Source of the DNA: Falsiroseomonas stagni DSM 19981
GTDB taxonomy: Bacteria; Pseudomonadota; Alphaproteobacteria; Acetobacterales; Acetobacteraceae
Length of the DNA stretch: 64,000 bases
Direction of reading: 5' to 3'
Assembly: GCF_900114315.1 (NCBI RefSeq)
Contig: NZ_FOSQ01000007.1
Location: 160,282-224,281 of the forward strand
Shown: positions 20,101-35,576 of the stretch, piece after piece
Layout: each line of letters opens with the position of its first letter
How positions within the stretch are numbered: the first letter of the stretch is position 1
Position numbers and translations under genes: made by a program
The notes under the pieces: model-generated
The model's input: the letters and a program-made list of their open reading frames with translations, nothing else
Told to the model about the DNA's origin: nothing
The model's database searches: none

Positions 20101-22126
20101 GCCCGGCATCGGTACCGCCGAGGGTGTAGACGAGCGCGACCGGGCGCGGCCCGAGTTCATCGCCATCGTCGGTCGCGGCAGCGGTGTAGACCACACCGGT
20201 CGCGTTCTCGACGATCGAGCCGGTGTCGCCGGAGGTGAAGACGGGTGCCTTGTTCTCATAGACCAGGTTGGTGACCCGGATCGCGACCTGCTGCACCAGG
20301 GGCTGGTAGCCATCGCTGACGGTGATGCTGACGTTGTAGACGTTGTCGGCGCCGGCATCGGCCGGTGCCTCGAAATCAGGTGCCGTCTTGAAGCTGAGGT
20401 CGCCGGTGGTCGTGTTGAGGTTGAACAGCGCGGCATCGGTGCCGCCGAGCCGCAGGGTCAGCGGATCGCCATCCGGATCGTCGCCGATCACCGTATAGAC
20501 GGCGCCGGTCGTGTTCTCCGGCACGCTGATGCGGGTGTTGACGGCGGGCAGGTCGTTGGTGCCCTGGATGGTCACCGTGACGGTGCCGGTGCGCTGAACG
20601 CCCTCCCCATCTTCCATGACGTACTGGAAGTAGGTCGCCGTCGTCTGCCCTTGCTTCAGCGACTGGAAGTTCAGGCCGGGGTCGTAGACGACCTTGCCGT
20701 CAACGATGCTGGCGCTGCCGATGAGATTCGCGGTGTTGAGTGACACCAGCGTCTTCGAGGATCCGGCCGTCGCCGTCTCGTCATTCGCCAGGACGTCGAT
20801 GGTGACGGCGGCACCGTCCTCGATGGCGGTCGCTCGGTCAGGCAGGGCAACGGAGGACGGCTCGAGGGTGACGACGAAGACGTCGTAGTCGAAGCCCACA
20901 TCGCTGTCGTCGGCGTAACCGTTACTCTTGTTAGAAGCCAGAACCAGCTTGCTGCCATCCGCGGACAGGGCGGCGGCGGACTGCTCCTTCGCGATCCAGG
21001 TGATCGAGCCGGTGTCGCGGTCCAGCACGTAGACGTTGGTTGCGCCATCGGTATGGTCAGGATCAAGATTCCTGGCCGAGCTCAGGAAGACGAGCTTCCT
21101 GCCATCAGCCGACAGCGCGCCGAGGTCGCTGAACACGAAAGCGCTGCTCGTGGTGAAGTCACCGTCGGGAATGGTCGCGCCGGCCGCTGCGAAGACATCC
21201 GTCAGCTCCCCGGTGACGAGGTCCTTCTCCATCAGTGTGGTTCTGGTGGTGGAACCAGTGTCCACGGTCAGCCGGAAGAAGATCTTGGCGCCGTCGGGGG
21301 AGAAGCTCACCCCCCGCGCCGCCGCAGTCTCCAACTCGCTGCCATCGCTCGCCGTGCTGACGCGGGTGATCGCGCCCGTCAGCAGGTCCTTGATGAAGAT
21401 GTCATAAGTGTAGGGAAGGTTGCTCGACGGGGTGCCATTGGTGTCGTTAGGCACGAGGTTGCTGGCTGGGGAAGCGAAGGCGATCTTTGTGCCATCCGGC
21501 GAAAAGACCGGGAGTTCGACGTAGTTGTTCGCATTCGCTCCCGCCGCATTGCTGGATACCAGCGTGTAGGCGCCAGTCGCCAGGTTCTTGACGTACACGT
21601 TGTCGAAGCCGCCGGTAACGCCGGGGACGAGCGTCGTCGCGTTCGACACAAAGGCGATGCTCTTGCCGTCCGGAGAATAGGCCAGATGGGAGAAATAGGC
21701 GTTCGGCTCGGCTCCGCCCGGGATGACCGACTCCAGCGTCACGGCGCCCGTGATCAGGTCCTTGATGTAGAGGTCCGTGCGGTTGTTCGTATCGGTGGGA
21801 CCGAGATTGGTGGCGTCGCTGTAGAAGGCCAGCTTCGTTCCATCAGGAGAGAAGAGGAAACCGATGTACGCGGCGCCGTTGGCTTCGGCGCCGGAGACCC
21901 CCCGCGAAACGATGGTCAATTCGCCGGTGTAGAGATCCTTGACGAAGATGTCCCGCTTGCCGTTCGTGTCGCCGGGAACGAGGTTCGACGCCTCGGTGAC
22001 GAAGGCGATCTTCGTGCCGTCCGGCGAGATGGCAAAGACGTCAGTTCTGTTGTTCGCCTTCACACCCGCGGCGGTTTCGGTCACGCGGGCGAAGCCCCCG
22101 ATGGTGGGGGAGAGGATGGAGGTCAT
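17192..22126 (-). CDS. Giant secreted PD40-cadherin-RTX calcium-binding protein
   Basis: A 1644-residue surface or extracellular protein. Residues about 1-425 are PD40/TolB-like propeller repeats (FSPDGTKIAF...DIFVKDL-TG). About 430-540 is a VCBS/cadherin-like linker (AIEDGAAVTIDVLANDE). About 540-1160 holds six cadherin-type repeats, each beginning -ENxTGxxYT and ending in VTVTDVYEN-like linkers. From about 1165 come RTX nonapeptides (GGxGxDxLx). These alternate with three ~90-residue modules built on YFVDNxGD...ELNGEGxDQV. The last ~80 residues resemble a type I secretion signal; there is no N-terminal signal peptide. Probably an adhesin or matrix protein. No HlyB/HlyD/TolC genes are adjacent. 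Confidence 0.85.
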   Translation of the reverse strand: MTSILSPTIGGFARVTETAAGVKANNRTDVFAISPDGTKIAFVTEASNLVPGDTNGKRDIFVKDLYTGELTIVSRGVSGAEANGAAYIGFLFSPDGTKLAFYSDATNLGPTDTNNRTDLYIKDLITGAVTLESVIPGGAEPNAYFSHLAYSPDGKSIAFVSNATTLVPGVTGGFDNVYVKNLATGAYTLVSSNAAGANANNYVELPVFSPDGTKIAFASPASNLVPNDTNGTPSSNLPYTYDIFIKDLLTGAITRVSTASDGSELETAAARGVSFSPDGAKIFFRLTVDTGSTTRTTLMEKDLVTGELTDVFAAAGATIPDGDFTTSSAFVFSDLGALSADGRKLVFLSSARNLDPDHTDGATNVYVLDRDTGSITWIAKEQSAAALSADGSKLVLASNKSNGYADDSDVGFDYDVFVVTLEPSSVALPDRATAIEDGAAVTIDVLANDETATAGSSKTLVSLNTANLIGSASIVDGKVVYDPGLNFQSLKQGQTTATYFQYVMEDGEGVQRTGTVTVTIQGTNDLPAVNTRISVPENTTGAVYTVIGDDPDGDPLTLRLGGTDAALFNLNTTTGDLSFKTAPDFEAPADAGADNVYNVSITVSDGYQPLVQQVAIRVTNLVYENKAPVFTSGDTGSIVENATGVVYTAAATDDGDELGPRPVALVYTLGGTDAGHFSINAATGAVSISSAKDFEQPDDSNGDHIYDITVTSSDGSRSATQAVAITVTDVYENVAPVVTSAATANFAENGTGAAYTLVIVDTGGAAGPAGGDNSYLAVTMGGADADLFSYDSGTGQVHFLAAPDFEVPVDSLADTLANVYRLTFTVSDGAFTATRNVAITVTDVYENLAPVVTSTGPATFAENGTGTAFSVSATDTGGPSAAGPVTLVYSLGGADAALFDFDTATGVATFIDAPDFENPQDDGGDNIYDVTITASDGALSSNVNLSLTITDANAPAIIGSAGSATFQENTTGTVYAITYTDDENVAGGTHALAIGGADAANFDLDADTGVITFKASPNFEAPRSPVYTIQVFVQDIIDVAGVPTVVGTLGSKQVQITVTNVNEGLSITSAAAVAFTENVTSPAYTVVGVDIDAGTVLNYSISGTDAAIFTIDSITGAVSFVNAPDFETPLDAGGDNVYDFMVSATDGEFTATKAVAITVGNVIEGGAGSDTITGSGGADTIDGGAGQDAINGSGGNDIMLGSGGNDNLNGGAGADSLVGGEGNDQLSGGTDGDTLAGGVGNDTMDGGTGADSIAGGVGDDVYYVDNAGDRILELNGEGTDQVFSTATFTLSSFLETLVLRGAGNTDGTGNDGNNTLTGNAGSNRLYGQGGHDRLDGGAGADAMLGGAGNDIYFVDNSGDTVVELDGEGADQVYASVSYTLSAFTEALFLRGTDTIAGTGNAQDNTLSGNVAGNTLSGGAGNDRLDGGAGADSLVGGVGNDVYFVDTAADAILELNGEGSDQVASSVSYTLSDFIEVLSLTGTASIDGTGSAQSNSLVGNGGANALDGADGNDTLNGGAGNDTLTGGAGNDSLLGGTGSDVFLFRSIGEAPDRIADYNVAEDSIQVSASGFAGPLTIGIDLVANNLYVANAAGVATVAGTGQFVFDTDDRILWWDANGTGAGGATQIAVLFGVSGFVSTEIQVIA

Positions 22127-22389: not shown

Positions 22390-22956
22390 TCAACCGTTGC
22401 GGGTGGCCAGCGCCTTCAGGCACGCCTCGAAGCCCGTGAGGTCGGACCAGCGCTGCGCGGCCGGCACCGCGCGGCGCACCAGCATCCCATCCGCCGCACG
22501 GATGCCGCCATCGATCATCAGATTGTCGGTGAGGCCGAAGGATTCGAGTGAGAGTCCCTCCCCATCCACCCACTCGCCTTCAGCGTCACGGCGCGCGGCA
22601 TCGCCGAGGAAGCGGCGCGTGCGGGTGCTGAAATCGGCGTCGTCGTTGCTGTAGCCCAGCACCGGACGGCCGAGCGCCCGCATGAAGCCCAGTTCGTAGA
22701 CGGTGCCGGCATCGGCGGATGGGCCTCGGAAGGGCGTCAGATTCGCCACCAGGGCATCGCAGGCGCGGATATGCGCCTCGTTCCGCAGGTAGATGGCGTA
22801 CCAGAGATCGGGCGCCGCATCGGCGGCGGGATCGGGCCGCGGATCGGTGGGGAAGACCCCCTCCAGCCCGTACAGCGCGCAGAGGCGCTTCTTCTCCGCC
22901 GCCATGGCGGCAGCATCGGGCAGGAAGACGTCGGGGCCGGCGAGGTAGACTTTCAT
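22390..22956 (-). CDS. Nucleoside 2-deoxyribosyltransferase family protein
   Basis: 188 residues from the ATG at 22956, which has an AGAGGGGG ribosome site. The N-terminus KVYLAGPDVF is the standard opening of the family. DLWYAIYLRN and CDALVANLTPFRGPSADAGTVYELGFM follow, the latter containing the catalytic Glu of YELG and the substrate Asp. Family members swap bases between deoxynucleosides or hydrolyse the N-glycosidic bond, usually for nucleoside salvage or detoxification. The start is divergent from the alpha/beta hydrolase gene 79 bases away. Confidence 0.88.
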   Translation of the reverse strand: MKVYLAGPDVFLPDAAAMAAEKKRLCALYGLEGVFPTDPRPDPAADAAPDLWYAIYLRNEAHIRACDALVANLTPFRGPSADAGTVYELGFMRALGRPVLGYSNDDADFSTRTRRFLGDAARRDAEGEWVDGEGLSLESFGLTDNLMIDGGIRAADGMLVRRAVPAAQRWSDLTGFEACLKALATRNG

Positions 22957-23035
22957 GGCCCCCTCTTGCCTCAAACAGGGGTGGTTGTGGAACGGGGGGC
23001 TTGCCGCGCGCGGCGGCCCCGCGTGCAATGCGGCC

Positions 23036-23839
23036 ATGGACCCCGAAGCCGAATACAACAACCGCGCCCGCGTGCCCGAACACCCCGCCGTGATGGCGGG
23101 ATGGCAAAGGGACGCCAGCGCCTGGCGGGAAGCCTGCCCGCGCGCCGAACTCGGCCTCGTCTACGGGATCGGGGAACGGGAGCGGCTGGACCTGTTCTGG
23201 CCAGAGGGAGAGGCCGTCGCCATGGCCGTCTTCATCCATGGCGGATACTGGATGGCACTCGGGCGCGAATGGGTCAGCCATTGCGCGCGGGGGTTGAACG
23301 GCCATGGGATTGCGGTGGCGGTACCGTCCTATGACCTGGCGCCAGGCGTCACCGTCAGCACCATCGTCGCGCAGATGCGCGCCGCCTGCGCCTTCCTGTT
23401 CCGCCGGCACGGCCGGCGCCTGATGGTGACGGGCCATTCCGCCGGCGGGCAATTGGCGGCGATGATGCTGGCGACGGAATGGCGCGCGATGGATCCGGCA
23501 CTGCCGGCGGACCTCGTGCCCGCCGCGCTGCCGATTTCCGGCGTGTTCGAGCTGGAGCCGCTGCTGCCCACGACCATCGGCGCGGGCCTGCGGATCACGC
23601 CGGCAGAGGCCCGCGCCGTGTCGCCCCGCTTCCTGCCGAAGCCCCCGGGCACTCTCCACTGCGTGGTTGGCGGTGACGAAAGCCCGGAGTACCTGCGCCA
23701 GACACGCGACATGGCGGCCGCCTGGGGCGGCAAGGCAGAGGCGCTGCCGGGGTTGAACCACTTCACAGTCATCGCGCCGCTGGCCGATCCGGGCAGCGCG
23801 CTGGTGGGGCATGCAAAACGGCTTGCATGTCGCCGATAG
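23036..23839 (+). CDS. Alpha/beta hydrolase, kynurenine formamidase-like
   Basis: 267 residues from the ATG at 23036. The oxyanion-hole motif FIHGGYW and nucleophile motif GHSAGGQ (Ser) are in family order, with a probable acid in GGDESPEYL and His in LNHFTVI. HGGYW plus GHSAGG is typical of the esterase/kynurenine-formamidase group, which cleaves N-formylkynurenine or small esters. The context supports the first: anthranilate is a product of kynurenine breakdown, and an anthranilate-CoA type cluster lies 7 kb downstream. No kynureninase gene is in the window, so this remains inference. Its stop codon touches the operator of the liv operon. Confidence 0.72.
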   Translation: MDPEAEYNNRARVPEHPAVMAGWQRDASAWREACPRAELGLVYGIGERERLDLFWPEGEAVAMAVFIHGGYWMALGREWVSHCARGLNGHGIAVAVPSYDLAPGVTVSTIVAQMRAACAFLFRRHGRRLMVTGHSAGGQLAAMMLATEWRAMDPALPADLVPAALPISGVFELEPLLPTTIGAGLRITPAEARAVSPRFLPKPPGTLHCVVGGDESPEYLRQTRDMAAAWGGKAEALPGLNHFTVIAPLADPGSALVGHAKRLACRR

Positions 23840-23853
23840 TTCAAGCTTAAAAT
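23838..23853. promoter_or_regulatory. Putative MarR-type operator upstream of the liv operon
   Basis: The core TTCAAGCTTAAA (23840-23851) is a near-perfect palindrome with 10 of 12 bases paired. It matches 9 of 12 bases of the site TTTAGGCTTCAA at 33412 in front of the aromatic-CoA genes. It ends 24 bases before the first liv start codon, a position from which a bound repressor would block expression. Confidence 0.55.
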
Positions 23854-23875
23854 ATCTACGGGAGACGGAGGAACG

Positions 23876-25066
23876 ATGATGCGGTTCGAACTGGGCCGGC
23901 GCGCGGCGCTGGGCCTTGGCGCCTCGGCGCTTGCCATGCCGCTGGTGGCACGCGCGCAGGCGGCGCCGGTGAAGGTGGGGCTGGTGGCGGTTCTGACGGG
24001 GCCGCAGGCCTCGCTGGGGACGCATCTGCGGGACGGCTTCATGCTGGGCATGCGGCACCTGGAGAACCGCCTCGGCGGCCGCGGCGCGGAGGTGCTGGTG
24101 ATCGATGACGAGCTTCGCCCCGATGCCGCCGTGACCAAGGTGCGCGCGGCGATCGAGCGCGACCGCTGCGACGTGATCGTCGGTGTCGTCTTCTCCAACA
24201 TCCTGGCCGCCATCATGCGACCGGTGACGGAGACGCAGACCTTCCTGATCTCGACCAATGCGGGCCCCTCCCCCTTCGCCGGGCGCGGCTGCAACCCGTT
24301 CTTCTTCGCGACCTCCTACGTCAATGACCAGAACCATGCGGTGATGGGCCAGGCGGCGCAGGATGCCGGCTACCGCCGCGTGATGATCATGACGCCGAAC
24401 TACCAGGCGGGGCGCGATGCCGCGGCCGGCTTCAAGTCCCGCTTCCGGGGCGAGGTGGTGGACGAGATCTACACGCCGCTGACGCAGCTCGACTTCTCGG
24501 CGGAGCTGGCGCGGATCGCGGCGGCGCGGCCGGATGCGCTGTTCACCTTCATGCCGGGCGGGCTCGGCGTGAACCTGGTGCGGCAGTACCGCCAGGCGGG
24601 CCTCGGCAACATCCCCTTCCTCTCCGCCTTCACGGTGGATGAGGCGGTGCTGCCGGCGCAGGGCGAAGCCGCGGTCGGCTTCTTCACCGGCACCACCTGG
24701 ACGCCGACGCTGCCGAACGAGCAGAACGCCCGCTTCGTGCGGGACTTCGAGGGGCAGTTCAACTACGTCCCCGCCAGCTATGCGGCGCATGCCTATGACA
24801 GCGCCTTCCTGCTGGACAGCGCCATCCGTCGCACGGGTGGCAACCTGGCCGACAAGGGCGCGCTGCGCGCCGCCATCCGGGCGGCCGATTTCCGCAGCGT
24901 GCGTGGCAATTTCGCCTTCGGCGCCAACCACTTCCCGGTGCAGGATTTCTGGCTGGCCAAGGTGGCCCGCCGCGCGGATGGCAAGTTCCAGACGGAGCAT
25001 GAACGGAAGGTCTTTGACAACGTCGTCGATCCCTTCGCGGCCGAGTGCCGCATGCCCGCGGCCTGA
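23876..25066 (+). CDS. Branched-chain-type ABC transporter substrate-binding protein
   Basis: A 396-residue LivK-type periplasmic protein. The signal peptide contains twin arginines (LGRRAALGLGASALAMPLVARA), so Tat export is possible. The mature part starts VKVGLVAVLTGPQASLGTHLRDG, the family's first binding lobe. It heads a complete five-gene transporter with the two permeases and two ATPases. The ribosome site GGAG lies close to the start; ATG at 23876 and at 23879 are both possible. With the aromatic-acid operons sharing its putative operator, an aromatic carboxylate or amino-aromatic is a likelier ligand than leucine. Confidence 0.87.
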   Translation: MMRFELGRRAALGLGASALAMPLVARAQAAPVKVGLVAVLTGPQASLGTHLRDGFMLGMRHLENRLGGRGAEVLVIDDELRPDAAVTKVRAAIERDRCDVIVGVVFSNILAAIMRPVTETQTFLISTNAGPSPFAGRGCNPFFFATSYVNDQNHAVMGQAAQDAGYRRVMIMTPNYQAGRDAAAGFKSRFRGEVVDEIYTPLTQLDFSAELARIAAARPDALFTFMPGGLGVNLVRQYRQAGLGNIPFLSAFTVDEAVLPAQGEAAVGFFTGTTWTPTLPNEQNARFVRDFEGQFNYVPASYAAHAYDSAFLLDSAIRRTGGNLADKGALRAAIRAADFRSVRGNFAFGANHFPVQDFWLAKVARRADGKFQTEHERKVFDNVVDPFAAECRMPAA

Positions 25067-25081
25067 GGGACGGGACGAGGG

Positions 25082-26005
25082 ATGTCGACGACGCTCCTGC
25101 TGGTGCAGGGCCTGAACGGCCTGCAACTCGGCATCCTTCTCTTCCTCATCGCGGCGGGGCTGACGCTGGTCTTCGGGGTGATGGATTTCATCAACCTGGC
25201 GCATGGCGTGCAGTACATGGTGGGCGCCTATTTCGCCGCCTTCTTCGCCGCGCAGACCGGCAGCTTCTGGCTGGCCTTGCTGCTGGCGCTGCCGGCGGCG
25301 CTGCTGTTCGGCCTGCTGCTGGAATTCCTGGTCTTCCGGCATCTATATGACCGCGATCACATGGCGCAGGTGCTGGCGACCTTCGGCGTGATCCTGGTGC
25401 TGAACCAGGGCGTGAAGATGGTCTTCGGCGCGGCGCCGCTGCAGGTGCCGCTGCCCGATGCGCTGACGGGCGGCATCCGCGTGATGGACGGCCTGCTCTA
25501 TCCCACCTATCGGCTCGCCATCATCGCGGGTGGGCTCGCCACCGCCGGGCTGCTCTGGTGGCTGGTGGAGCGCACGAAGGTCGGCATGCTGGTGCGCGCG
25601 GGCGCGACGAACGCACCGATGGTGGCGGCGCTCGGCGTCGATATCCGGCGGTTGTTCATGATCGTCTTCGGCTTCGGGGCGATGCTGGCGGGCTTCGCGG
25701 GGGTGCTGGCGGCGCCGATCCTGTCGGTGGAGCCCGGGATGGGCGACAACCTGCTGATCCTGGCCTTCGTCGTCATCGTCATCGGCGGCATCGGCAGCAT
25801 CCGCGGCGCCTTCCTGGCGGCGCTGCTGGTCGGGCTGGTGGAAACGCTGGGGCGGTCCATGATGCCGGACCTGATGCGGCTGTTCCTGTCACCGAGCGAG
25901 GCGCGGCAGGTCGGCGCGGCGCTGTCCTCCATGCTGATCTACATCGCCATGGCGGCGATCCTGGCCTTCCGGCCCGCGGGACTGTTCCCGGTGCGGGCGT
26001 CCTGA
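25082..26005 (+). CDS. Branched-chain-type ABC transporter permease, LivH family
   Basis: A 307-residue inner-membrane protein with about eight hydrophobic segments. It opens GLNGLQLGILLFLIAAGLTLVFGVMDFINLAHG, which is characteristic of LivH. The C-terminal part IGSIRGAFLAALLVGLVETLG is the cytoplasmic coupling region that meets the ATPases. The ATG follows the binding-protein stop by 15 bases. It pairs with the LivM-type permease in the next gene to form the translocation path. Confidence 0.88.
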   Translation: MSTTLLLVQGLNGLQLGILLFLIAAGLTLVFGVMDFINLAHGVQYMVGAYFAAFFAAQTGSFWLALLLALPAALLFGLLLEFLVFRHLYDRDHMAQVLATFGVILVLNQGVKMVFGAAPLQVPLPDALTGGIRVMDGLLYPTYRLAIIAGGLATAGLLWWLVERTKVGMLVRAGATNAPMVAALGVDIRRLFMIVFGFGAMLAGFAGVLAAPILSVEPGMGDNLLILAFVVIVIGGIGSIRGAFLAALLVGLVETLGRSMMPDLMRLFLSPSEARQVGAALSSMLIYIAMAAILAFRPAGLFPVRAS

Positions 26006-26007
26006 CG

Positions 26008-26955
26008 ATGCGCCAGCTGCGATCCGAGTTGCCCGCCCTGCTGCTGCTGGGTGCGCTCGCCCTGGCCCCCTTCGTGGGGTTCGGCGAGGGCTATGTGCTG
26101 ACGCTGCTGGCGCGGGCCATGATCCTGGCGATGGCGGCGGTCGCGCTGTCGCTGCTGGTCGGTGGCGCGGGCCTCGTCTCCATGGGCCATGCCGCGATGA
26201 TGGGCTTCGGCGCCTATGCCGTGGTGATCCTGGATGATGCGCGCATCGTGGAGGCGCATGTCGTGCTGCCCGTCGCCATCCTGGCGGCTGCCGGCTTCGC
26301 GCTGGTGACGGGCGCGGTCGCGGTCAGGACCAGCGGCGTGCACTTCATCATGATCACGCTGGCCTTCGGGCAGATGGCCTTCTTCACCGCGACCTCGCTC
26401 GCGGGCTATGGCGGCGACGATGGCTACACGCTCTATGCGCGGAACACCGTGGCGGGCGGGCGGCTGCTGGAGAACAAGCTGGCCTTCCACTACGTCTGCC
26501 TGGGTGCGCTGACGGCTTCCTGGCTGCTCTGCCGCATGCTGCTGGCCTCCCGCTTCGGGCGCGTGCTGCGCGCCGTGAAGGGCAATCCGATGCGGGCCCA
26601 GGCGCTCGGCTTCGACCCCTATCCCTACCGCCTGACGGCCTATGTCATCGCCGGCGCGATCGGCGGCGCGGCGGGGTTCCTCTTCGCCAATGCCGCGGAG
26701 TTCGTCGCACCGGCCTACATCTCCTGGCAGCGCTCCGGCGAATTGCTGTTCATGGTCATCCTCGGCGGGCTGTCCGGCCTGCATGGCGCGCTGCTCGGCG
26801 CGCTGGGCTTCGTGCTGCTGGAGGAATGGCTGTCCCATCAATGGGAGCATTGGCGCATCCTCTTCGGCGTGCTGCTGATCCTGGCCGTGCTGTTCCTGCC
26901 GAACGGCCTGTCCGGCATCCCTGGCCAGGTCGCGAAGGGGTTCCGCCGTGGCTGA
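26008..26955 (+). CDS. Branched-chain-type ABC transporter permease, LivM family
   Basis: A 315-residue inner-membrane protein. The start at 26008 sits 2 bases after the LivH stop; the frame is open further upstream but overlaps LivH. GGAGLVSMGHAAMMGFGAYA is the LivM landmark, and the later GGLSGLHGALLGALGFVLLEEWL is the coupling loop. About ten hydrophobic stretches are visible. The end overlaps the ATPase gene by 8 bases (GTGGCTGA), indicating coupled translation. Confidence 0.87.
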   Translation: MRQLRSELPALLLLGALALAPFVGFGEGYVLTLLARAMILAMAAVALSLLVGGAGLVSMGHAAMMGFGAYAVVILDDARIVEAHVVLPVAILAAAGFALVTGAVAVRTSGVHFIMITLAFGQMAFFTATSLAGYGGDDGYTLYARNTVAGGRLLENKLAFHYVCLGALTASWLLCRMLLASRFGRVLRAVKGNPMRAQALGFDPYPYRLTAYVIAGAIGGAAGFLFANAAEFVAPAYISWQRSGELLFMVILGGLSGLHGALLGALGFVLLEEWLSHQWEHWRILFGVLLILAVLFLPNGLSGIPGQVAKGFRRG

Positions 26956-27718
26956 GGCGCTCCTTTCGCTGCGCAACCTGAGGAAACGCTTCGGCGGCCT
27001 GGCCGTCACCGACGACGTGTCGCTCGATGTCACGCCGGGGGAGATCCACGCGATCATCGGCCCCAACGGCGCGGGGAAGACAACCCTGATCAATGAGATC
27101 AGCGGCGTGCTGCCGGTGGATGCGGGCCAGGTCTTCTTCGCCGGGCGGGACATCACCGCGCTGCCGCTGCATCGCCGCGCCAGGCTCGGCCTGGCGCGCA
27201 GCTTCCAGATCACCTCCGTCATCCCCGCCTTCACGGCGCTGGAGAATACCGCGCTCGCCGTGCAGGCGGGCGCGGGGTCCAGCTTCCGCTTCTTCCGCCC
27301 GGCCTCCACCGAACAGCGGCTGAACCAGGCAGCGATGGCGGCGCTGGAGGCGGTGGGCCTCGGCGCCCGCGCGCAGGTGCCGGCGGGGGCGATGAGCCAT
27401 GGGGAGAAGCGGCAGCTCGAACTCGCCATCGCCCTCGCCACGGAGCCCCGCCTGCTGCTGCTGGACGAACCGCTGGCCGGCGCGGGGCCGGAGGAGACGG
27501 AGCGGCTGATCGGCATCCTGCGATCCTTGCGCGGCCGCTACACCATCGTGCTGGTGGAGCACGACATGCAGGCGGTCTTCGCCCTCGCCGACCGGATCTC
27601 CGTCCTCGTCTATGGCCGTGTCATCGCGACCGGCGCCACGGAGGAGATCCGCGCCAACCCCGAGGTGAAGGCCGCCTATCTCGGCGAGGACGAGATGACG
27701 CTGGACCATGTGCCATGA
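26948..27718 (+). CDS. ABC transporter ATP-binding protein, LivG family
   Basis: A 256-residue ATPase that begins with GTG inside the end of the LivM gene. It has Walker A GPNGAGKTT, signature MSHGEKRQLELAIAL, Walker B LLLLDEPLAG, and a switch His in LVEHDMQ. The slightly non-standard signature (SHGEK in place of SGGQ) is common in LivG. With LivF it powers the transporter on the cytoplasmic face. Confidence 0.88.
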   Translation: MAEALLSLRNLRKRFGGLAVTDDVSLDVTPGEIHAIIGPNGAGKTTLINEISGVLPVDAGQVFFAGRDITALPLHRRARLGLARSFQITSVIPAFTALENTALAVQAGAGSSFRFFRPASTEQRLNQAAMAALEAVGLGARAQVPAGAMSHGEKRQLELAIALATEPRLLLLDEPLAGAGPEETERLIGILRSLRGRYTIVLVEHDMQAVFALADRISVLVYGRVIATGATEEIRANPEVKAAYLGEDEMTLDHVP

Positions 27719-28431
27719 TCCGCCTGGCCGGCCTGACCGCGGGCTATGGCGGCAGCCAGGTCCTGTTCGGCATCGACCTCGCGATCGGCGCCGGGGAGGT
27801 GGTGACCCTGCTCGGCCGCAACGGCATGGGCAAGACCACGACCATCCGCGCCATCATGGGCCTGCTGCCCTCGGTCGGCGGGCGCATCTGGGGGGGCGAT
27901 ATCGCGCTCGATGGCGCCTCCGTCGCGGGCCTGCCGGCGCACAAGGTGGCGCGACAGGGGCTCGGGCTGGTGCCGGAAGGGCGGCAGGTCTTCCCGACCC
28001 TGACGGTGGAGGAGAATCTGCTGGCCACCGCCGCGCATCGGGGCCCCGGCGCGCCGCGCTGGACGCTGCCGGCGGTGTATGACTTCTTCCCCCGCCTGCG
28101 GGAGCGTCGCCACAACCCCGGCGCCAAGCTCTCCGGCGGCGAACAGCAGATGGTCGCGATCGGCCGCGCCCTGATGACCAATCCGCGCCTGCTGATCCTG
28201 GACGAGGCGACCGAAGGCCTGGCGCCGCTGATCCGCGCGGAGATCTGGCACGTGCTGGCGCAGCTCAAGGCCGAGGGCCAGGCGATCCTGCTGATCGACA
28301 AGAACCTGGCGGCCGTGACGCGCCTGGCCGACCGGCATGTGGTGATCGAGAAGGGCCGCACGGTCTGGACCGGCACCAGCGCCGATCTGGCCGCGGCGCC
28401 GCAGGTCCGGGACAGCTACCTGCACCTGTAA
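27715..28431 (+). CDS. ABC transporter ATP-binding protein, LivF family
   Basis: A 238-residue ATPase overlapping LivG by ATGA. It has Walker A GRNGMGKTT, signature LSGGEQQMVAIGRAL and Walker B LLILDEATEGL. The switch region reads LLIDKNLAA in place of the common LVEQN form, a variant seen in proteobacterial LivF proteins. It closes the transporter operon. The 129-base gap to the Bug gene has no T-tract terminator, so read-through is possible. Confidence 0.88.
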   Translation: MIRLAGLTAGYGGSQVLFGIDLAIGAGEVVTLLGRNGMGKTTTIRAIMGLLPSVGGRIWGGDIALDGASVAGLPAHKVARQGLGLVPEGRQVFPTLTVEENLLATAAHRGPGAPRWTLPAVYDFFPRLRERRHNPGAKLSGGEQQMVAIGRALMTNPRLLILDEATEGLAPLIRAEIWHVLAQLKAEGQAILLIDKNLAAVTRLADRHVVIEKGRTVWTGTSADLAAAPQVRDSYLHL

Positions 28432-28560
28432 ACCCTTTACCGCTTTACAGGCGGCGGAGTCGGTGGCTTCACAGCTTTCACCGCGCCCACGCAATCATCC
28501 TATAGAACTGCGCGCACCCACGATGCATTTGAACGCCAGACGAGTTCTGGAGGTTCGATC

Positions 28561-29523
28561 ATGTCGCAGCTCAGCCGCCGTAGCATCCTCGGTGCCTTCC
28601 TCACGGCCCCCCTCGCCGCCCCCGCCTTCGCCCAGCCCTGGCGGCCGGACCGACCGGTCGAACTCGTCGTCGGCTTCGCCCCGGGCGGTGGCACGGACAT
28701 CGTCGCGCGGCTCTTCGCCAAGCACCTGGAAACGCGCCTCGGGCAGCCCATCACGGTAGTGAACCGGCCGGGGGCGTCCAGCGAGGTGGCGCTGACCTAT
28801 GTCGCGCGGTCGCGGCCGGATGGGCAGGTGCTGGGGCTGACCAACATGCCGTCCTTCGTGACGGTGCCGGTGGAGCGGCGGGCGCAGTACAACCTCGACA
28901 GCTTCGGCTTCATCGGCAACATCATGACGGACCCGACGGGCCTGATCGTGCGTGCCGACAGCCCGATCAGGGATGTGCAGGATCTGGTGCGCCGCGCGCT
29001 GGCGGATCCCGAGGGGATTGTCGTCTCGACCTCCGGCATCGGCACCGACGATCACCTGATGATGGCGCAGATCTCGCGGCTGACGGGCGCGCGCTTCACG
29101 CTGATCCACTACACCGGCGCGCCGATCCAGCGGACGGCGCTGATCGCCGGCCAGGTGCAGGCGAATTGCGTCTCCATCGGCGAATACGCGCCCAACCCCG
29201 ATGGCGTGCGCTTCATCGCGCATGGCGGGGCGGAGCGCAGCCGCTTCACGCCGGAGACGCCGACCTTCAGGAGCCTCGGCCTCGATTTCGAGATGTATTC
29301 GGAACGCGGCCTGGTGGTGCCGGCCTCCACGCCTTCCCGCATCCTCGAAAGGCTGCGCGACGCCGTGCAGGAAGCCGCCAGCGATCCCGCCACCCGGCGC
29401 AGCTTCGAGGCACAGTTCATCGAGCCGACGCTGGAGCCCGGCGCGCAGTGGGAAGCGCGGATGCGGGCGACGCAGACCCAGTATGCTGACCTGTGGCGCC
29501 GCGCGCCCTGGATCAACAGCTGA
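28561..29523 (+). CDS. Bug-family (TctC-like) solute-binding protein
   Basis: A 320-residue periplasmic protein. The signal peptide carries SRRSILGAFLTAP, a good twin-arginine motif, and ends at AFA-QP. The mature part VELVVGFAPGGGTDIVARLFA is the Bug family hallmark that binds carboxylates. TctA/TctB membrane partners are absent, as is usual for Bug proteins, which often act as sensors or share distant transporters. It lies between the liv genes and a LysR regulator, so it may bind the same aromatic or carboxylic substrate. Confidence 0.87.
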   Translation: MSQLSRRSILGAFLTAPLAAPAFAQPWRPDRPVELVVGFAPGGGTDIVARLFAKHLETRLGQPITVVNRPGASSEVALTYVARSRPDGQVLGLTNMPSFVTVPVERRAQYNLDSFGFIGNIMTDPTGLIVRADSPIRDVQDLVRRALADPEGIVVSTSGIGTDDHLMMAQISRLTGARFTLIHYTGAPIQRTALIAGQVQANCVSIGEYAPNPDGVRFIAHGGAERSRFTPETPTFRSLGLDFEMYSERGLVVPASTPSRILERLRDAVQEAASDPATRRSFEAQFIEPTLEPGAQWEARMRATQTQYADLWRRAPWINS

Positions 29524-29638
29524 GTGGGGGGTGGCCCGCGTCATGAAGCCGTTCTTGTGCCAGCGGTCGAAGAACCGCGGCGGGGCCCGGTGGTGACGAC
29601 AAGGGAGCCGTCGCCAGACCGGCGCGGGCCACCGATGG

Positions 29639-30529
29639 TCAGTCCCTGAACTCCGCGGGCAGCACCGCGGCCAGGTGGTCGAAGACGGCGCGGTAGCGCC
29701 GTCCCTGGCGCACATCCGCATGGGCCACCAGCCAGACCGCCGTGCGCGGCGCGAATTCCGCGGCCAGCAGCCGGCGCAAACCCGGCGCGCGCCTTGCCGA
29801 GCGCGTTTCGAGGACACCCATGCCGAGGCCGCTCGCGATCGCTTCGCGTTGCGCCAGCAAGCTGTCGGTCTTGAACGCGAAATGCGTCCTGCTGACGTCG
29901 AGCTTAAGGCGTTCGGCCGCGCGCGGGCCGAAGGCATCGCGGTCGAAGCCCACCCAGGCATGGGCGACCACCTGGTCGATCCCGGATGGCTCTCCGTGGC
30001 GTGCCAGATAATCCTCCGACGCGAAGAAGCCGAGTTCCACCATGCCGATCTGCCGCGCGATCAGCTCAGGCTGCTCGGGCCGGGAGAAGCGGATCGCGAT
30101 GTCGGCGTCGCGGCGCAACAGGTTCTCCACCTGCATGCCGGTCGACACCTCGATGGTGATCCCCGGATTGCTGAGCAGGAAAGGCCGCATCAGCGCCGGG
30201 AGGCGTTCGACGCCGAAGACTTCCGTCGTCGTGATTCGCACCGTGCCGGTCGGGCTCTCCGGCTTGCCGGTGATGGAGGCGGACAGCGCCTGCGCGGCCT
30301 GTTCCAGATGCTCGGCGTGTTCCATCAGCGCCATGGCGCGGTCCGTGGGGCGAAGGCCCTGCGGCGTGCGGTCGAACAGCGCCTCCCCCACCTGGTCCTC
30401 CAGCGTGCGGATCTGGCGGCCGACGGTCGGCTGCGTCAGGCGCAGGGTCTGGGCGGCGGCTGAGAGGCTGCCTGACCGCATCACCGCGACGAAGGCCTGG
30501 AGAAGGCTCCAGTCCAGGCTGTTTGTCAT
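29639..30529 (-). CDS. LysR-family transcriptional regulator
   Basis: 296 residues. The N-terminal helix-turn-helix reads LLQAFVAVMRSGSLSAAAQTLRLTQPTVGRQIRTLED, typical of LysR proteins. It is followed by the two-lobed effector domain (TVRITTTEVFGVERLP to the end). It is convergent with the Bug gene and divergent from the small secreted protein at 30682. A 19-bp palindromic site begins one base before its start codon, suggesting autoregulation. The ligand is unknown. Confidence 0.88.
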   Translation of the reverse strand: MTNSLDWSLLQAFVAVMRSGSLSAAAQTLRLTQPTVGRQIRTLEDQVGEALFDRTPQGLRPTDRAMALMEHAEHLEQAAQALSASITGKPESPTGTVRITTTEVFGVERLPALMRPFLLSNPGITIEVSTGMQVENLLRRDADIAIRFSRPEQPELIARQIGMVELGFFASEDYLARHGEPSGIDQVVAHAWVGFDRDAFGPRAAERLKLDVSRTHFAFKTDSLLAQREAIASGLGMGVLETRSARRAPGLRRLLAAEFAPRTAVWLVAHADVRQGRRYRAVFDHLAAVLPAEFRD

Positions 30530-30530
30530 G

Positions 30531-30549
30531 CCGTTACCGCATGTAACGG
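30531..30549. promoter_or_regulatory. Palindromic operator at the lysR start
   Basis: CCGTTAC and GTAACGG form perfect 7-base arms around a 5-base centre CGCAT. The site abuts the LysR start codon on the minus strand and lies upstream of the divergent small secreted-protein gene. The position suggests that the LysR protein represses itself and acts on the divergent promoter. Confidence 0.55.
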
Positions 30550-30681
30550 TTAAGGGTCATGCATTTCCGCATGCCGGAGGAAGAACAATCGGCAATCCCG
30601 CGACGACGGCCGCGGACGCATCTTCCGGCCACGGACGGCGACATCGGGTCGCCACCCCGACTGAGAAGAAAGCCAACGACC

Positions 30682-31020
30682 ATGACCACCCTCTCCTCCA
30701 AGCTGACCCTGGCCGCCGCGCTGTTCGGCACGGCCCTGGCCTTCGGTGCCGCGACCGCGCAGGCCGCCGAGGCGACTTCCTACCCCCGTTCGGTGGGCAC
30801 CGGCGAGAATAGCGAGATCGTCTATGCGCCGGGTTACCAGGGCAACATCGTCGGCGGCGGCCGCATCGTGACGCAGCAGATGCCGGGCAACGAGGTCGCC
30901 GTGACCTATCTGGATGGCCAGTTCGCCCAGCGCCAGGCCCCGGGCGTCGCGGCGCGGTCGATCAGCAACGGCGAGAACACGGATTTCGTGCTGGCGCCGA
31001 TCGCCGCGCCCCGCGGCTGA
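30682..31020 (+). CDS. Small secreted protein of unknown function
   Basis: 112 residues from the ATG at 30682, placing a signal peptide (LTLAAALFGTALAFGAATAQA, cut before AEATS) at the N-terminus. The frame is open upstream to 30559 but would bury the signal. The mature part of about 88 residues is polar, has no Cys, and contains two similar segments: GTGENSEIVYAP and SNGENTDFVLAP. The latter pair suggests an internal duplication. I do not recognise the family. It is divergent from lysR and may be its target. Confidence 0.65.
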   Translation: MTTLSSKLTLAAALFGTALAFGAATAQAAEATSYPRSVGTGENSEIVYAPGYQGNIVGGGRIVTQQMPGNEVAVTYLDGQFAQRQAPGVAARSISNGENTDFVLAPIAAPRG

Positions 31021-31044
31021 TGACCGTCCAGCGGGCGGCGGAGG

Positions 31045-33381
31045 CTACTCCGCCGCCCGCGGAAGCGACGCCGCCTCCGGCTTGTGGCTCTTCGGCCGGG
31101 CCTTGAGCTTCAGGTCCCGCAGTTCCGCCTGATCCTTCGCCGCGTTGCGCAGCAGCGCATCCTTGCCCCAGAGGTATTGCGGCGGGCAGGCGATATCCTT
31201 CACGCCATACTGCGCCGCGGCGTGCAGGGTGAAGGATGGGTTCGTCAGATGCGGCCGGGCCAACGCCACCAGATCCGCGCGGCTGGCGGCGACGATGGTG
31301 TTCACCTGGTCGGCGCTGGTGATGTTGCCGACGCACAGGGTCGCGATGCCCGCCTCGTTCCGGATCATGTCGGACCAGGGCAGCTGGAACATCCGGCCAT
31401 AGGTCGGGCTGGCATCGGCCACGGTCTGGCCGGTGGAGACATCGATCAGGTCCGCGCCGGCTGCCGCGAAGGCGCGCGCGATCGCCAGGCAATCCCCGTC
31501 CGTCAGGCCGCCCTCCGCCCAGTCGGTCGCGGAGATGCGGACCGACATGGGCTTTTCCGCCGGCCAGACCGCGCGCATGGCCGCGAAGACCTCGATCGGA
31601 TAGCGCAGCCGGTTCTCGACGCCGCCGCCGTAGTCATCGTCCCGCCGGTTGGTGAGCGGCGACAGGAAGCTGGCCAGCAGGTAGCCGTGCGCGCAATGCA
31701 GTTCCAGCATGTCGAAGCCGCAGGCGATGGCGCGCCTTGTGGCGACGACGAAATCGGCCTTCACCGCATCCATGTCCTCGCGGGTCATGGCGCGCGGCAC
31801 CTGGCTTTCGGGGTAGTAGGGGATCGCGCTGGCGGAGAGGATCGGCCAGGCGCCTTCCTTCAGCGGCTTGTCCATCCCTTCCCACATCAGCCGCGTCGCG
31901 CCCTTCCGCCCGGCATGGCCGAGCTGGAGGCAGAATTTCGCGTCTGATGTCGCATGCGCCAGCGCGACGATGCGCGTCCAGGCGGCCTGCTGCTCATCGT
32001 TCCAGAGGCCGGCGCAGCCCGGGGTGATGCGGGCGGTCGGGCTGACGCAGGTCATCTCCGTGAACAGCAACCCGGCCCCACCCATGGCGCGGGCGCCGTA
32101 ATGCGCGATGTGGAAGTCACCGGGCACGCCTTCCGGCGCCGAATACATGCACATCGGGGAGACGACGACGCGGTTCGCGAGCGTCATGTCGCGCAGCCTG
32201 AAGGGCTGGAACATGGGCGGCTTGCGCGGGTCGGCCGGCAGGCCGGCGGCCTGGGCTTCCTCCGCCACCGCGCGCTGCGTCTCGGCCACGAATTGCGGGG
32301 CGCGCAGCGCCAAATTGTCCCAGGTAATGGCCTTCGACCGCGTCATGACACCGAAGGCGAAGCGGGTCGGAGAGAACTGCCAGAAACGCTTCACATGTTC
32401 GAACCACACCAGGGAGACGCCGGCGGCGTGCTGCGTCTTCTCCACATCCTCGCGCCGGTCGGTCTCGTAGCGGTGCAGGCATTCGGCCACGCTGCCGCCG
32501 GCGCGGAACGCCTTGTGGAGGCCGATCGCATCCTCCATCGCCAGCTTGGTGCCAGATCCGATGGAGAAATGCGCGCTGGCCTTGGCATCGCCCAGCAGGA
32601 CCATGTTGTCCTTCACCCAGCGGCCGCAGGTGATGGTCGGGAATTGCCGCCACATCGATCTGTTGGTGATCAGGCGGTGGCCCTGCAATTCCTCGGCAAA
32701 GACGCCTTCGAGATACGCGGCCGACTCCGCCTCGTTCATCCGCTCCAGGCCGGCACGGGCAAAGGTCTCGGGATCGGTCTCCAGCACCCAGGTGCTGGCG
32801 CCGGCCTCGTACTGGTAGCAATGGGCGATGAAGATGCCCTCGGGCCGTTCCTTGAAGAAGAAGGTGAAGGCGTCGAAGGGGCGCGTGCTGCCCATCCAGG
32901 CGAAGCGGTTCGGGCGGAGGTCCACTTCCGGCGCGAAATGGTCGCGGAAGCGTTCGCGGATGGGGGAATTGATGCCATCGGCGGCAACGATCAAATCGGC
33001 ATCCGGGAAATCCTCCGGCGCGGCCTCCCGCCGGTATTCGAGTTCGACGCCCAGCGCGCGGGCGCGGTCGGAGAGCAGCATCAGCAGGGTGCGGCGGGAG
33101 CAGCCGCAGAAGCCGTTGCCGCCGATGCGGTGTTCCTGGCCCTTGGCGACAATGGCGATGTCGTCCCAATAGGCGAAGCTCTCCGTGATGGCGCGGTAGC
33201 TGGGTTCATCCGCGGCCTGGAAGGTGTCGAGCGTCGCGTCGCTGAAGACGACGCCGAAGCCGAAGGTATCGTCCGGCCGGTTGCGCTCCACCACCGTGAT
33301 GCGCGCCTGCGGGAAATCCCGCTTCATCAGGATGGAGAAATAGAGGCCCGCCGGGCCGCCGCCGATCACCGCGATGCGCAT
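31045..33381 (-). CDS. Fused 2-aminobenzoyl-CoA monooxygenase/reductase (salicylyl-CoA 5-hydroxylase type)
   Basis: A 778-residue fusion starting at 33381, where GGAGG lies 7 bases ahead of the ATG. Residues 1-~390 are a flavin monooxygenase: [11 protein letters not shown], then [10 protein letters not shown] and [26 protein letters not shown]. From ~400 is an Old Yellow Enzyme-type NADH:flavin oxidoreductase: [31 protein letters not shown] and [17 protein letters not shown]. This architecture is known for the anthraniloyl-CoA monooxygenase/reductase of Azoarcus evansii and related 'salicylyl-CoA 5-hydroxylase' proteins. It hydroxylates and then reduces the ring of the CoA ester. It is divergent from the ligase and beta-oxidation operon. 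Confidence 0.88.
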
Positions 33382-33410
33382 CGATGCACCTCCGCCCCTG
33401 ACACCCGATA

Positions 33411-33426
33411 GTTTAGGCTTCAAAGA
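33411..33426. promoter_or_regulatory. Putative MarR-type operator, monooxygenase side
   Basis: The core TTTAGGCTTCAA (33412-33423) lies 30 bases before the monooxygenase/reductase start on the minus strand. It is an imperfect palindrome centred on GC and matches the copy at 33474 at 11 of 12 bases. Confidence 0.6.
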
Positions 33427-33471
33427 TTGGGCGGGCAACCGGATTGCAAGGTTGCGCCGCCGCCGGATGAT

Positions 33472-33487
33472 GTTTTAGGCTTGAAGC
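33472..33487. promoter_or_regulatory. Putative MarR-type operator, SDR-operon side
   Basis: The core TTTAGGCTTGAA (33474-33485), with extended arms GTTTTAGGC/TTGAAGC, ends 14 bases before the SDR start codon. It is in the same orientation as the copy 62 bases upstream. A repressor bound here would cover the ribosome-site region of the first gene of the operon that contains the marR-type gene. Confidence 0.6.
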
Positions 33488-33499
33488 ATCGGAGGTCGG

Positions 33500-34234
33500 A
33501 TGGAAGCGTCGCCACTCCTCGGCAAGGCCGCGCTCGTCACGGGCGGCGGCACGGGCATCGGGCTCGCCTGCGCGCAAGCGCTGACGCGCGCGGGGGCGGT
33601 GGTGACGGTGCTCGGGCGGCGGGAAGCGCCGCTGCGGGCCGCACTGGATGCCGGCGATGCGGCGGGCCTGCTGGTGGCGGATGTGACCGCCCTGCCCGCG
33701 CTGCCGCGCTTCGACATCCTGGTGAATGCCGCCGGTGCGGCGGAAAGCGCGCCTTTCCTCAAGTCTGATGCCGCGCTGTTCGACCGGATGTGGCGGGTGA
33801 ATGTGCTGGGCGCGGTTGCGGCGGCGCAGGCCGTGCTGCCGGGGATGCTGGATGCCGGCGCCGGGCGCATCGTGATGGTGGCCAGCACCGCGGCGCTGAA
33901 GGGCTACCCCTATGTCACCGCCTATACCGCCGCGAAGCACGGGCTGCTCGGCCTGGTGCGGGCGCTGGCGCAGGAAGTGGCGATGAAGGGCGTGACGGTG
34001 AATGCGGTCTGCCCGGGCTTCACGGATACCGCCATCGTGGCGGAGAGCGTGGCCCGCATCGTTGCCAAGACCGGGCGCGGCGAGGATGAGGCCCGCGCCG
34101 AACTCGCGAAGCACAACCCGCAGAAGCGCCTGGTGCAGCCGGCGGAGGTCGCCGCCGCGGTGCTCGCCCTCTGCCTGCCCGGCAGCGCCGCCATCAACGG
34201 GCAGGCCATCGCGGTGGATGGGGGGGAGACGTGA
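33500..34234 (+). CDS. SDR-family dehydrogenase of the aromatic-CoA operon
   Basis: A 244-residue short-chain dehydrogenase: TGGGTGIGLACAQ for cofactor, NAAGAAE, a catalytic Ser in MVASTAALKG, and Tyr/Lys in YTAAKHG. The C-terminal KRLVQPAEVAAAVLALCLPGSAAINGQAIAVDGG is typical of 3-hydroxyacyl-CoA or 3-oxoacyl reductases. In this operon it most likely oxidises a 3-hydroxyacyl-CoA in the beta-oxidation-like steps. GGAGG precedes the start. It overlaps the MarR gene by GTGA. Confidence 0.85.
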   Translation: MEASPLLGKAALVTGGGTGIGLACAQALTRAGAVVTVLGRREAPLRAALDAGDAAGLLVADVTALPALPRFDILVNAAGAAESAPFLKSDAALFDRMWRVNVLGAVAAAQAVLPGMLDAGAGRIVMVASTAALKGYPYVTAYTAAKHGLLGLVRALAQEVAMKGVTVNAVCPGFTDTAIVAESVARIVAKTGRGEDEARAELAKHNPQKRLVQPAEVAAAVLALCLPGSAAINGQAIAVDGGET

Positions 34235-34752
34235 CCCCGGACGACATGATGCCCGCCGCCGTGGATGCGGAGACCGCCCTGGCTGGCGCGCCGCCTGGCC
34301 ACAAGGACGATCTTCGCCTCTGGCTGCGCCTGCTGACCTGCGCGACGCTGATCGAGGGCGAGATCCGCACCCGCCTGCGCCGCGACTTCGACACGACCCT
34401 GCCCCGCTTCGACCTTCTGGCGGCGCTGGACCGCGCGCCGGCGGGCCTCACGCTCGGCGATGTGTCCCGCCGCATGATGGTCAGCAACGGCAACGTCACC
34501 GGCCTGGCCACGCGGCTGGAGGCCGAGGGGCTGGTCGAGCGCCGCGCGCGGCCTGGCGACCGCCGCGCCCAGATGCTGCGGCTGACGGCCAAGGGGAAGC
34601 GCGAATTCGCGCGGCAATCGGCGGCGCATGAGGGCTGGGTCGCGGAACTGCTCGGCGGGCTGGATGGCGCCGACCGCGCCGCGCTGTTCCGTCTGCTGGG
34701 CCAGGCCAAGGGTTCCGTCCGCGCGGCCCTTTCACCCGAGGAAACACCATGA
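34231..34752 (+). CDS. MarR-family transcriptional regulator
   Basis: 173 residues starting with GTG inside the SDR stop; an ATG at 34246 is an alternative. The winged helix-turn-helix reads [56 protein letters not shown], standard for MarR proteins, flanked by dimerisation helices. Many MarR proteins in aromatic-acid clusters sense the aryl-CoA thioester and release DNA. Three copies of one palindrome at 23840, 33412 and 33474 are the obvious candidate binding sites. It overlaps the hydratase gene by ATGA. Confidence 0.88.
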
Positions 34753-35576
34753 TCACGGCCATCAGCGGCCCCTTGGCCAGCTACGCCGCGCAGCATCTTC
34801 GCCTGGATATCGAGGGCGGCGTCGCGACGCTGACGCTCAACCGGCCGGAGCGGAAGAACCCGCTGACCTTCGACAGCTACGCGGAGATGGCCGCGATCCT
34901 GCGCGCCGCCACCCATGATGATGCGGTGAAGGCTTTCGTCGTGACAGGCGCGGGCGGCAATTTCTGCTCGGGCGGCGATGTGCATGAGATCATCGGCCCG
35001 CTGCTGGATCGCGACACCAAGGGGCTGATGCAGTTCACGGCCATGACGGGTGAGCTGGTGAAGGCCATGCGCGCCTGCCCGCAGCCCATCATCGCCGCCA
35101 TCGATGGCATCGCCGCCGGCGCGGGCGCGATCATCGCCATGGCATCGGACATCCGCCTCGGCACCGCGCGGGCCAAGACCGCCTTCCTGTTCAACCGCGT
35201 GGGCCTCGCCGGCTGCGACATGGGCGCCTGCGCCATCCTGCCCCGCATCATCGGCCAGGGCCGGGCGAGCGAGTTGCTTTATCTCGGAAGATCGCTCGGC
35301 GGGGAGGAAGCGCTGGCCTGGGGCTTCTTCAACGCAATCCACGAGCCCGATGTGCTGCAAGGCGCCGCCGCGAAGCTGGCGCGGGAGATCGCGGAGGGGC
35401 CGAACTTCGCCCATGCCATGACCAAGCGCATGCTCCAGATGGAATGGGCCATGTCGCTGGACCAGGCGATCGAGGCCGAGGCCGTGGCGCAGGCGCTGTG
35501 CATGACCACGCAGGATTTCCGCCGCGCCTATGACGCCTTCGTCGCGAAGCAGCGTCCGCAGTTCAAGGGCGACTGA
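34749..35576 (+). CDS. Enoyl-CoA hydratase/isomerase family protein
   Basis: A 275-residue crotonase-fold enzyme. The oxyanion-hole peptides are GNFCSGGDV and [17 protein letters not shown]. The usual catalytic Glu region reads [19 protein letters not shown], with Asp rather than Glu, a form also seen in aromatic-pathway members. It probably hydrates, or opens the ring of, the cyclic enoyl-CoA made by the monooxygenase/reductase. It overlaps both neighbours (ATGA upstream, TGATG downstream), showing tight coupling. Confidence 0.85.

Follow-up and report, generated by a model that had tools for sequence, protein, structure and literature searches.

The closest described counterpart of the locus analyzed here is the 2-aminobenzoate cluster of Azoarcus (Aromatoleum) evansii, which is said to comprise a ligase, a 2-aminobenzoyl-CoA monooxygenase/reductase (ACMR), three beta-oxidation enzymes, an ABC transporter binding protein, a MarR-like regulator, and a translation-inhibitor (Rid-type) protein. 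We know of no operator described for this cluster. In the open-licence literature, no paper on the regulation of the 2-aminobenzoyl-CoA pathway was found, and a search with the operator letters reported below returned, judged by title, no paper on this pathway; the matching passage of a salicylate paper (PMC4136779) was a primer. According to accessible excerpts of the respective papers, CouR of Rhodococcus jostii is a MarR repressor of p-hydroxycinnamate catabolism that is released by p-coumaroyl-CoA and whose operators overlap −35 boxes (PMC4737184), while IadR (MarR_73) of the Variovorax iad locus binds indole-3-acetate itself (PMC9613470). Degradation of tryptophan via an anthraniloyl-CoA monooxygenase/reductase is named in an excerpt of PMC9007349.

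The window, i.e., the whole 64 kb stretch of DNA analyzed here, contains a Liv-type transporter operon and the two arms of an aromatic-CoA cluster. On the plus strand, the Liv operon encodes a LivK-type substrate-binding protein (23876–25066; Peripla_BP_6), the LivH-type and LivM-type permeases (25082–26005 and 26008–26955, the latter with an approximate start), and the LivG-type and LivF-type ATPases (26948–27718 and 27715–28431). A gene for a TctC-type binding protein (28561–29523) follows directly after LivF; in Roseomonas oleicola (L159), no such gene was found there. The minus-strand gene at 31045–33381 encodes a bifunctional salicylyl-CoA 5-hydroxylase/oxidoreductase family protein (NF006101, 1118.7 bits, cut-off 1078), in which the match spans residues 1–753 of 778 and covers a fused FAD monooxygenase and old-yellow-enzyme-type reductase. 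We take this product to be of the 2-aminobenzoyl-CoA monooxygenase/reductase type and refer to it as ACMR. The plus-strand arm comprises a short-chain dehydrogenase (SDR) proposed to catalyze a beta-oxidation step (33500–34234), a MarR-family regulator with MarR Pfam domains and proposed to be a repressor (34231–34752), an enoyl-CoA hydratase family protein (34749–35576), an acyl-CoA dehydrogenase (35576–36763; no model over cut-off), and a benzoate-CoA ligase family protein, the proposed 2-aminobenzoate-CoA ligase (36760–38412; TIGR02262, 379.9 bits, cut-off 375.25). A thioesterase-like, YbgC-like protein (38457–38873) and a Rid-family-like protein (38866–39279) complete this arm on the plus strand, both below cut-off and with approximate starts. 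ACMR is accordingly encoded beside an aryl-CoA ligase and beta-oxidation-type enzymes, with TIGR02262 and NF006107 (the latter for the hydratase) over cut-off and the SDR and acyl-CoA dehydrogenase assigned by family. This gene set, including the MarR gene and the ABC binding protein, is the same as that reported for A. evansii; unlike that cluster as far as it is described, the genes here are joined by an operator and accompanied by a full Liv operon and by genes for tryptophan 2,3-dioxygenase (TDO) and a kynureninase-like protein.

Exact searches located the 12-mer TTYARGCTTVAA at just three positions of the 64 kb window (23840, 33412, and 33474), compared to a mean of 0.00 per window in 100 dinucleotide shuffles. 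A comparison of the flanks revealed that the three sites extend beyond this core and form near-palindromes of 22 bp. Operator 1, GATAGTTCAAGCTTAAAATATC (23835–23856), precedes the Liv operon and holds a putative −10 box, TAAAAT. Operator 2, GATAGTTTAGGCTTCAAAGATT (33407–33428), lies at the promoter of the minus-strand ACMR gene, and operator 3, GATGTTTTAGGCTTGAAGCATC (33469–33490), at the promoter of the SDR-marR operon, 62 bp from operator 2. The gap between core and start codon amounts to 24 nt for LivK (ATG at 23876), 30 nt for ACMR (ATG with its first base at 33381, minus strand), and 14 nt for SDR (ATG at 33500). A TTG at 33438 lies upstream in the same uninterrupted ACMR frame, and a start there would put operator 2 within the gene; the conserved gap favors the ATG. 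The earlier note had described a core shared by the Liv, ACMR, and SDR promoters at 14–30 bases from the start codons, with a MarR gene inside one of the controlled operons, and all of this was borne out by the matches, the measured gaps, and the position of marR in the SDR operon.

Across the genome (6,384,459 bases), TTYARGCTTVAA was found at four places versus none for the reversed pattern; Markov models of order 0–3 built from the window predict 0.5–1.4 places for the 12-mer. The 22-bp pattern with up to three mismatches occurred at exactly four places in 6.38 Mb (control: 0), namely ahead of the Liv operon, ACMR, and the SDR-MarR operon as well as between TDO and the kynureninase-like gene. 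When one mismatch was allowed in the 12-mer, 43 strand matches were obtained genome-wide versus 14 for the reversed control, and the short core alone is therefore unspecific at that setting. A symmetric matrix (symmetric consensus GATGCTTTAAGCTTAAAGCATC) was trained on 21 distinct family sites, all of them ACMR/SDR sites. With this matrix, for which operator 1 had not been used, the Liv site scored 35.9 bits, compared to 39.0 bits for the TDO site; the three window sites ranged from 33.1 to 35.9 bits, and the next-best window position reached 3.4. The genome-wide scan proposed in the earlier note yielded four places, each of them at a promoter of the pathway proposed here, and in its own genome the motif was not common upstream of unrelated genes, either as the 12-mer without mismatches or as the 22-mer with up to three.

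The fourth operator, GATAGTTTAAGCTTAAACTATC (G000:C37:62332–62353), is a perfect 22-bp palindrome that lies about 120 kb from the window sites and was absent from the earlier note. It is located between the gene for TDO (Pfam 3.4e-64; PDB 2nox, 8e-101) and a divergent gene for a class V PLP enzyme (L001 328–1476 on the same contig, minus strand), which is kynureninase-like with 24.8 bits for KYNU_C at a cut-off of 27. A relative of this enzyme in L238 reached 27.9 bits with the same model and cut-off, and the enzyme pairs with TDO in many relatives. Its PDB matches comprised no kynureninase and only weak cysteine desulfurases (9e-5 or weaker). In the genome, the kynureninase model TIGR01814 gave no match and the KynB formamidase model TIGR03035 none over its cut-off of 223 (best: 69 bits), so that a canonical kynurenine route, defined by both models over cut-off, was not detected. 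The class V PLP protein is a candidate for a non-canonical kynureninase. Regarding the preceding step, an alpha/beta hydrolase with an HGGYW motif is encoded directly upstream of LivK (22955–23839). Its PDB matches were the esterase 2pbl (1.4e-38) and the lipase 9n8r (8e-26), followed by the kynurenine formamidase 4e11 (7.8e-9); the gene adjoins LivK also in G006, G010, G011, G051, and G054, and no operator was found before it. This hydrolase is a candidate N-formylkynurenine formamidase that might fill the missing step, and candidate genes for both non-canonical activities can thereby be pointed out. The operator was present at the TDO locus of 4 of the 13 genus members having TDO, which means that the TDO arm comes and goes, and at none of the nine TDO-matching loci outside the genus in the same set. 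With TDO and a kynureninase-like protein encoded in the regulon, anthranilate (2-aminobenzoate) is a more likely pathway substrate than salicylate or benzoate. The regulon is larger than earlier proposed, and its predicted coverage of the steps from tryptophan to anthranilate is unexpectedly complete.

Operators were kept in the ACMR/SDR regions of Acetobacteraceae and of some bacteria beyond. A strong marR match was present at 24 loci, and at the 17 of them where the ACMR-SDR gap was complete, it held two sites in 14 cases and one site in three. For L030 and L033, which break off at a contig end, both sites are carried by the partner contigs (L155 and L142). Named matches to marR came from Roseomonas and other Acetobacteraceae, with ACMR/SDR sites in Roseomonas (L159, L161), Belnapia (L162), Craurococcus (L163), and Roseococcus (L164–L166); the stretches L160 and L167 stop before the ACMR-SDR gap. 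Outside the family, a site preceded SDR in L043 (one mismatch) and L046, only a degenerate palindrome was recognized by eye in L044, no site was found before SDR in L047, and L045 had neither an SDR gene nor a motif match. Sites before ACMR were further identified in G023 (41.3 bits, on another contig, L150), G025 (30.3 bits, L153), and a Burkholderiaceae MAG (30.8 bits, L170). The matrix scan gave no site or at most 18.5 bits in L168, L169, L171, and L173, and the two sites in Bradyrhizobium (L172; 24.7 and 32.0 bits) were both away from any ACMR.

The best PDB relatives of the LivK-type protein were 4evq/4evr, followed by 4zpj, 4ey3, 4evs, and 4f06. With the exception of 4zpj, we take these to be Rhodopseudomonas aromatic-acid binding proteins, of which 4evq and 4ey3 presumably bind benzoate derivatives; 4evq should correspond to RPA0668. 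An excerpt on RPA0668 (hbaE) gives benzoate, 4-hydroxybenzoate, and salicylate as its ligands (PMC3223731). A search of the open-licence literature under the code 4EVQ returned no relevant paper, and a structure model of the binding protein calculated from four sequences was set aside (pLDDT 34.4). The claim that the operator identifies the substrate class of the transporter as aromatic is made likely by these relatives, and anthranilate would be its main substrate. A substrate class is thereby suggested for a Liv transporter otherwise annotated as branched-chain amino acid uptake.

At LivK genes of at least 72% identity, the operator was found in 13 of 17 cases. All 13 loci L083–L095 have the site, 11 as exact matches to the loosened core and two with one mismatch, and the core begins 35–63 bases before the inferred LivK start. 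The copies lacking an operator are four paralogues at 81–82% identity (C30 of the own genome, G005, G012, and G013); no matrix match of at least 14 bits was obtained around the own second LivK gene, and no exact core was found for the paralogues of G005, G012, and G013. The own second copy (G000:C30:184177–185364, L154) is 82% identical to the window LivK, and its control or substrate may differ. In the draft genomes G006, G010, G014, and G051, the Liv operon lies on another contig than marR, yet has the site. Among 14 loci with distant LivK homologues (L096–L109), one, L102, showed the exact core (18.4 bits, in L148), L101 had a one-mismatch core 149 bases upstream, and L097 had a degenerate operator copy as judged by eye.

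The regulator encoded at 34231–34752 matches Pfam MarR_2 (5.2e-14) and MarR (9.2e-12). Its structure model (pLDDT 85.7) has MarR-family proteins with many different ligands as listed fold matches; CouR (5cyv, 18% identity) is one such generic match to the model. The closest solved relative by sequence is a MarR protein of Silicibacter pomeroyi (PDB 3boq; 6.5e-34 with a family profile), for which we know of neither a ligand nor an operator. With matches of E up to 1e-30 considered as orthologues, 33 of 150 family genomes were marR-positive. TTTARGCTTVAA occurred in 28 of these 33 genomes versus 22 of the 117 others (Fisher p = 4e-12, a value that overstates independence because the genomes are related), and the reversed pattern in 12 of 33 versus 56 of 117. 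A motif match was counted by eye at most 2 kb from marR in 24 of the 33 genomes; five of the 33 had no exact core match. At the sequence level, the palindrome is present at marR's own promoter as well as at the target promoters, and from the co-occurrence we infer that MarR binds the 22-bp sites. A single regulon for the Liv transporter and both aromatic-CoA arms, as postulated in the earlier note, is strongly supported because the motif is rare genome-wide, conserved even where the Liv operon lies on another contig, and co-occurs with the marR orthologue. An operator is thereby available for the anthranilate pathway, together with a regulon that can be tested.

That 12-bp cores also occur in 22 marR-less genomes could suggest that the sites arose by chance or represent a shared promoter motif without an operator role. 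Seven of these 22 genomes were scored: four had nothing of at least 12 bits, two reached 16.0 and 18.7 bits at best, and one 27.8 bits, whereas most sites in 23 stretches from marR-positive genomes scored 25–38 bits. Together with the restriction of the extended motif to four genomic places, this largely refutes such a reading, to which we assign next to no probability. The operator could also belong to another regulator, for example the product of a LysR gene (29639–30529) that sits between the two operons, or another MarR paralogue, with seven genome matches in all to the MarR protein. A LysR gene (E up to 1e-15, in the fetched stretches) was however present in L159 only among L159–L173, and LysR was rejected as the binder in view of the sites in L161–L166, where no LysR gene was found. 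As the motif co-occurs with the orthologue of the MarR gene at 34231–34752, we consider control by a different regulator improbable.

A sigma-70 consensus scan of the region found no promoter, and promoters were therefore inferred from conservation in operator-aligned sequences. LivK promoters have TTGC 8 nt upstream of the operator in 13 of 13 cases and TAAANN at operator positions 14–19. SDR promoters have TTGC 13 nt upstream (17 of 20) and TAGGCT at positions 8–13 (12 of 20, near variants in the rest), and among ACMR promoters, 13 of 14 rows show TAAACT at positions 14–19 and 10 of 14 a TTG at a constant upstream position. The operator thus overlies the likely −10 box, as would be expected if a repressor acted by occlusion. 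One repressor, rather than an activator, probably serves the uptake pump, the anthranilate-CoA breakdown genes, and the tryptophan-breakdown pair. We assign a probability of roughly 80% to the model of an autoregulated MarR repressor that acts at four promoters, with 2-aminobenzoyl-CoA as the most likely inducer. A MarR dimer would bind the 22-bp palindrome and mask the −10 box of the three window promoters and of one elsewhere, thereby also repressing its own operon. In the absence of substrate, Liv uptake, ACMR, the SDR-MarR-hydratase-dehydrogenase-ligase-thioesterase-Rid operon, and the TDO/kynureninase-like pair would be shut; in the presence of tryptophan or anthranilate, basal ligase would form 2-aminobenzoyl-CoA, which most likely frees the DNA from the repressor. 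With operator, MarR, and regulon unchanged, the inducer might instead be a free acid (anthranilate, kynurenine, or an indole acid), a serious possibility that we nevertheless doubt. Many MarR regulators take free aromatic acids, PcaV, HosA, and a Variovorax MarR from the fold search being examples with such ligands, and operators of other family genomes also precede indolepyruvate-oxidoreductase-like genes. On the other hand, the genes recurring with marR (ACMR, hydratase, and ligase) act on CoA thioesters, for which CouR, in the excerpt available, sets a precedent as inducers (PMC4737184). As far as the same excerpt describes it, the CouR system likewise combines a MarR gene, a CoA-dependent aromatic pathway, and inverted-repeat operators overlapping promoters, but its box is ATTGA-N5-TCAAT with a −35 overlap, while the box here is a different one with a −10 overlap. 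Like IadR, judging from the accessible part of that paper, the MarR protein here would control an aromatic route that derives from indole and involves anthranilate; the iad locus makes anthranilate, whereas the locus here would consume it (PMC9613470).

The 23 stretches, which surround further motif matches in marR-positive genomes, were read, with family scans on eight proteins (from L223, L232, L144, L145, L146, L230, L217, and L238) and all other genes named by eye, by likeness. Operator-linked genes included TDO/kynureninase-like pairs (G054, G066, and G150), LivK or LivK-like operons (G117, G102, G041, G051, and G054), and a ligase (G050, G085, and G099). Indolepyruvate-oxidoreductase-like genes were linked in G134, G085, G082, and G099, partly with peptide-type binding proteins, and also in G018; the protein from L223 scored 271 bits for IOR_alpha at a cut-off of 651. 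Class II aldolase-like genes were linked in G114, G143, and G122, and a luciferase-like monooxygenase in G085. The operator-like sites before indolepyruvate-oxidoreductase-like, SBP_bac_5, class II aldolase (PRK07490 in L230), and luciferase-like monooxygenase genes lie in L144, L146, L222–L225, L227–L230, and L232. A recognizable pathway context was missing in three of the 23 stretches, i.e., L218 (18.6 bits), L220, and L221, the last of which (G127) has a 25.5-bit site beside what looks, by eye, like the gene for a ribonucleotide reductase subunit. The linked genes point to a wider regulon for the breakdown of tryptophan and indole acids feeding 2-aminobenzoyl-CoA, and the operator may mark further genes of this kind in Acetobacteraceae. 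At slightly less than even odds, we tentatively suggest that one MarR repressor sensing 2-aminobenzoyl-CoA rules a self-contained route with its own uptake, leading from tryptophan (in other genera probably also from indole acids) via anthranilate to aminobenzoyl-CoA, with the non-canonical class V PLP protein and the HGGYW hydrolase serving the kynureninase and formamidase steps. As a separate observation, the minus strand of the window encodes at 17192–22126 a 1644-aa protein that, by reading, looks secreted and seems to carry cadherin-like and calcium-binding repeats.
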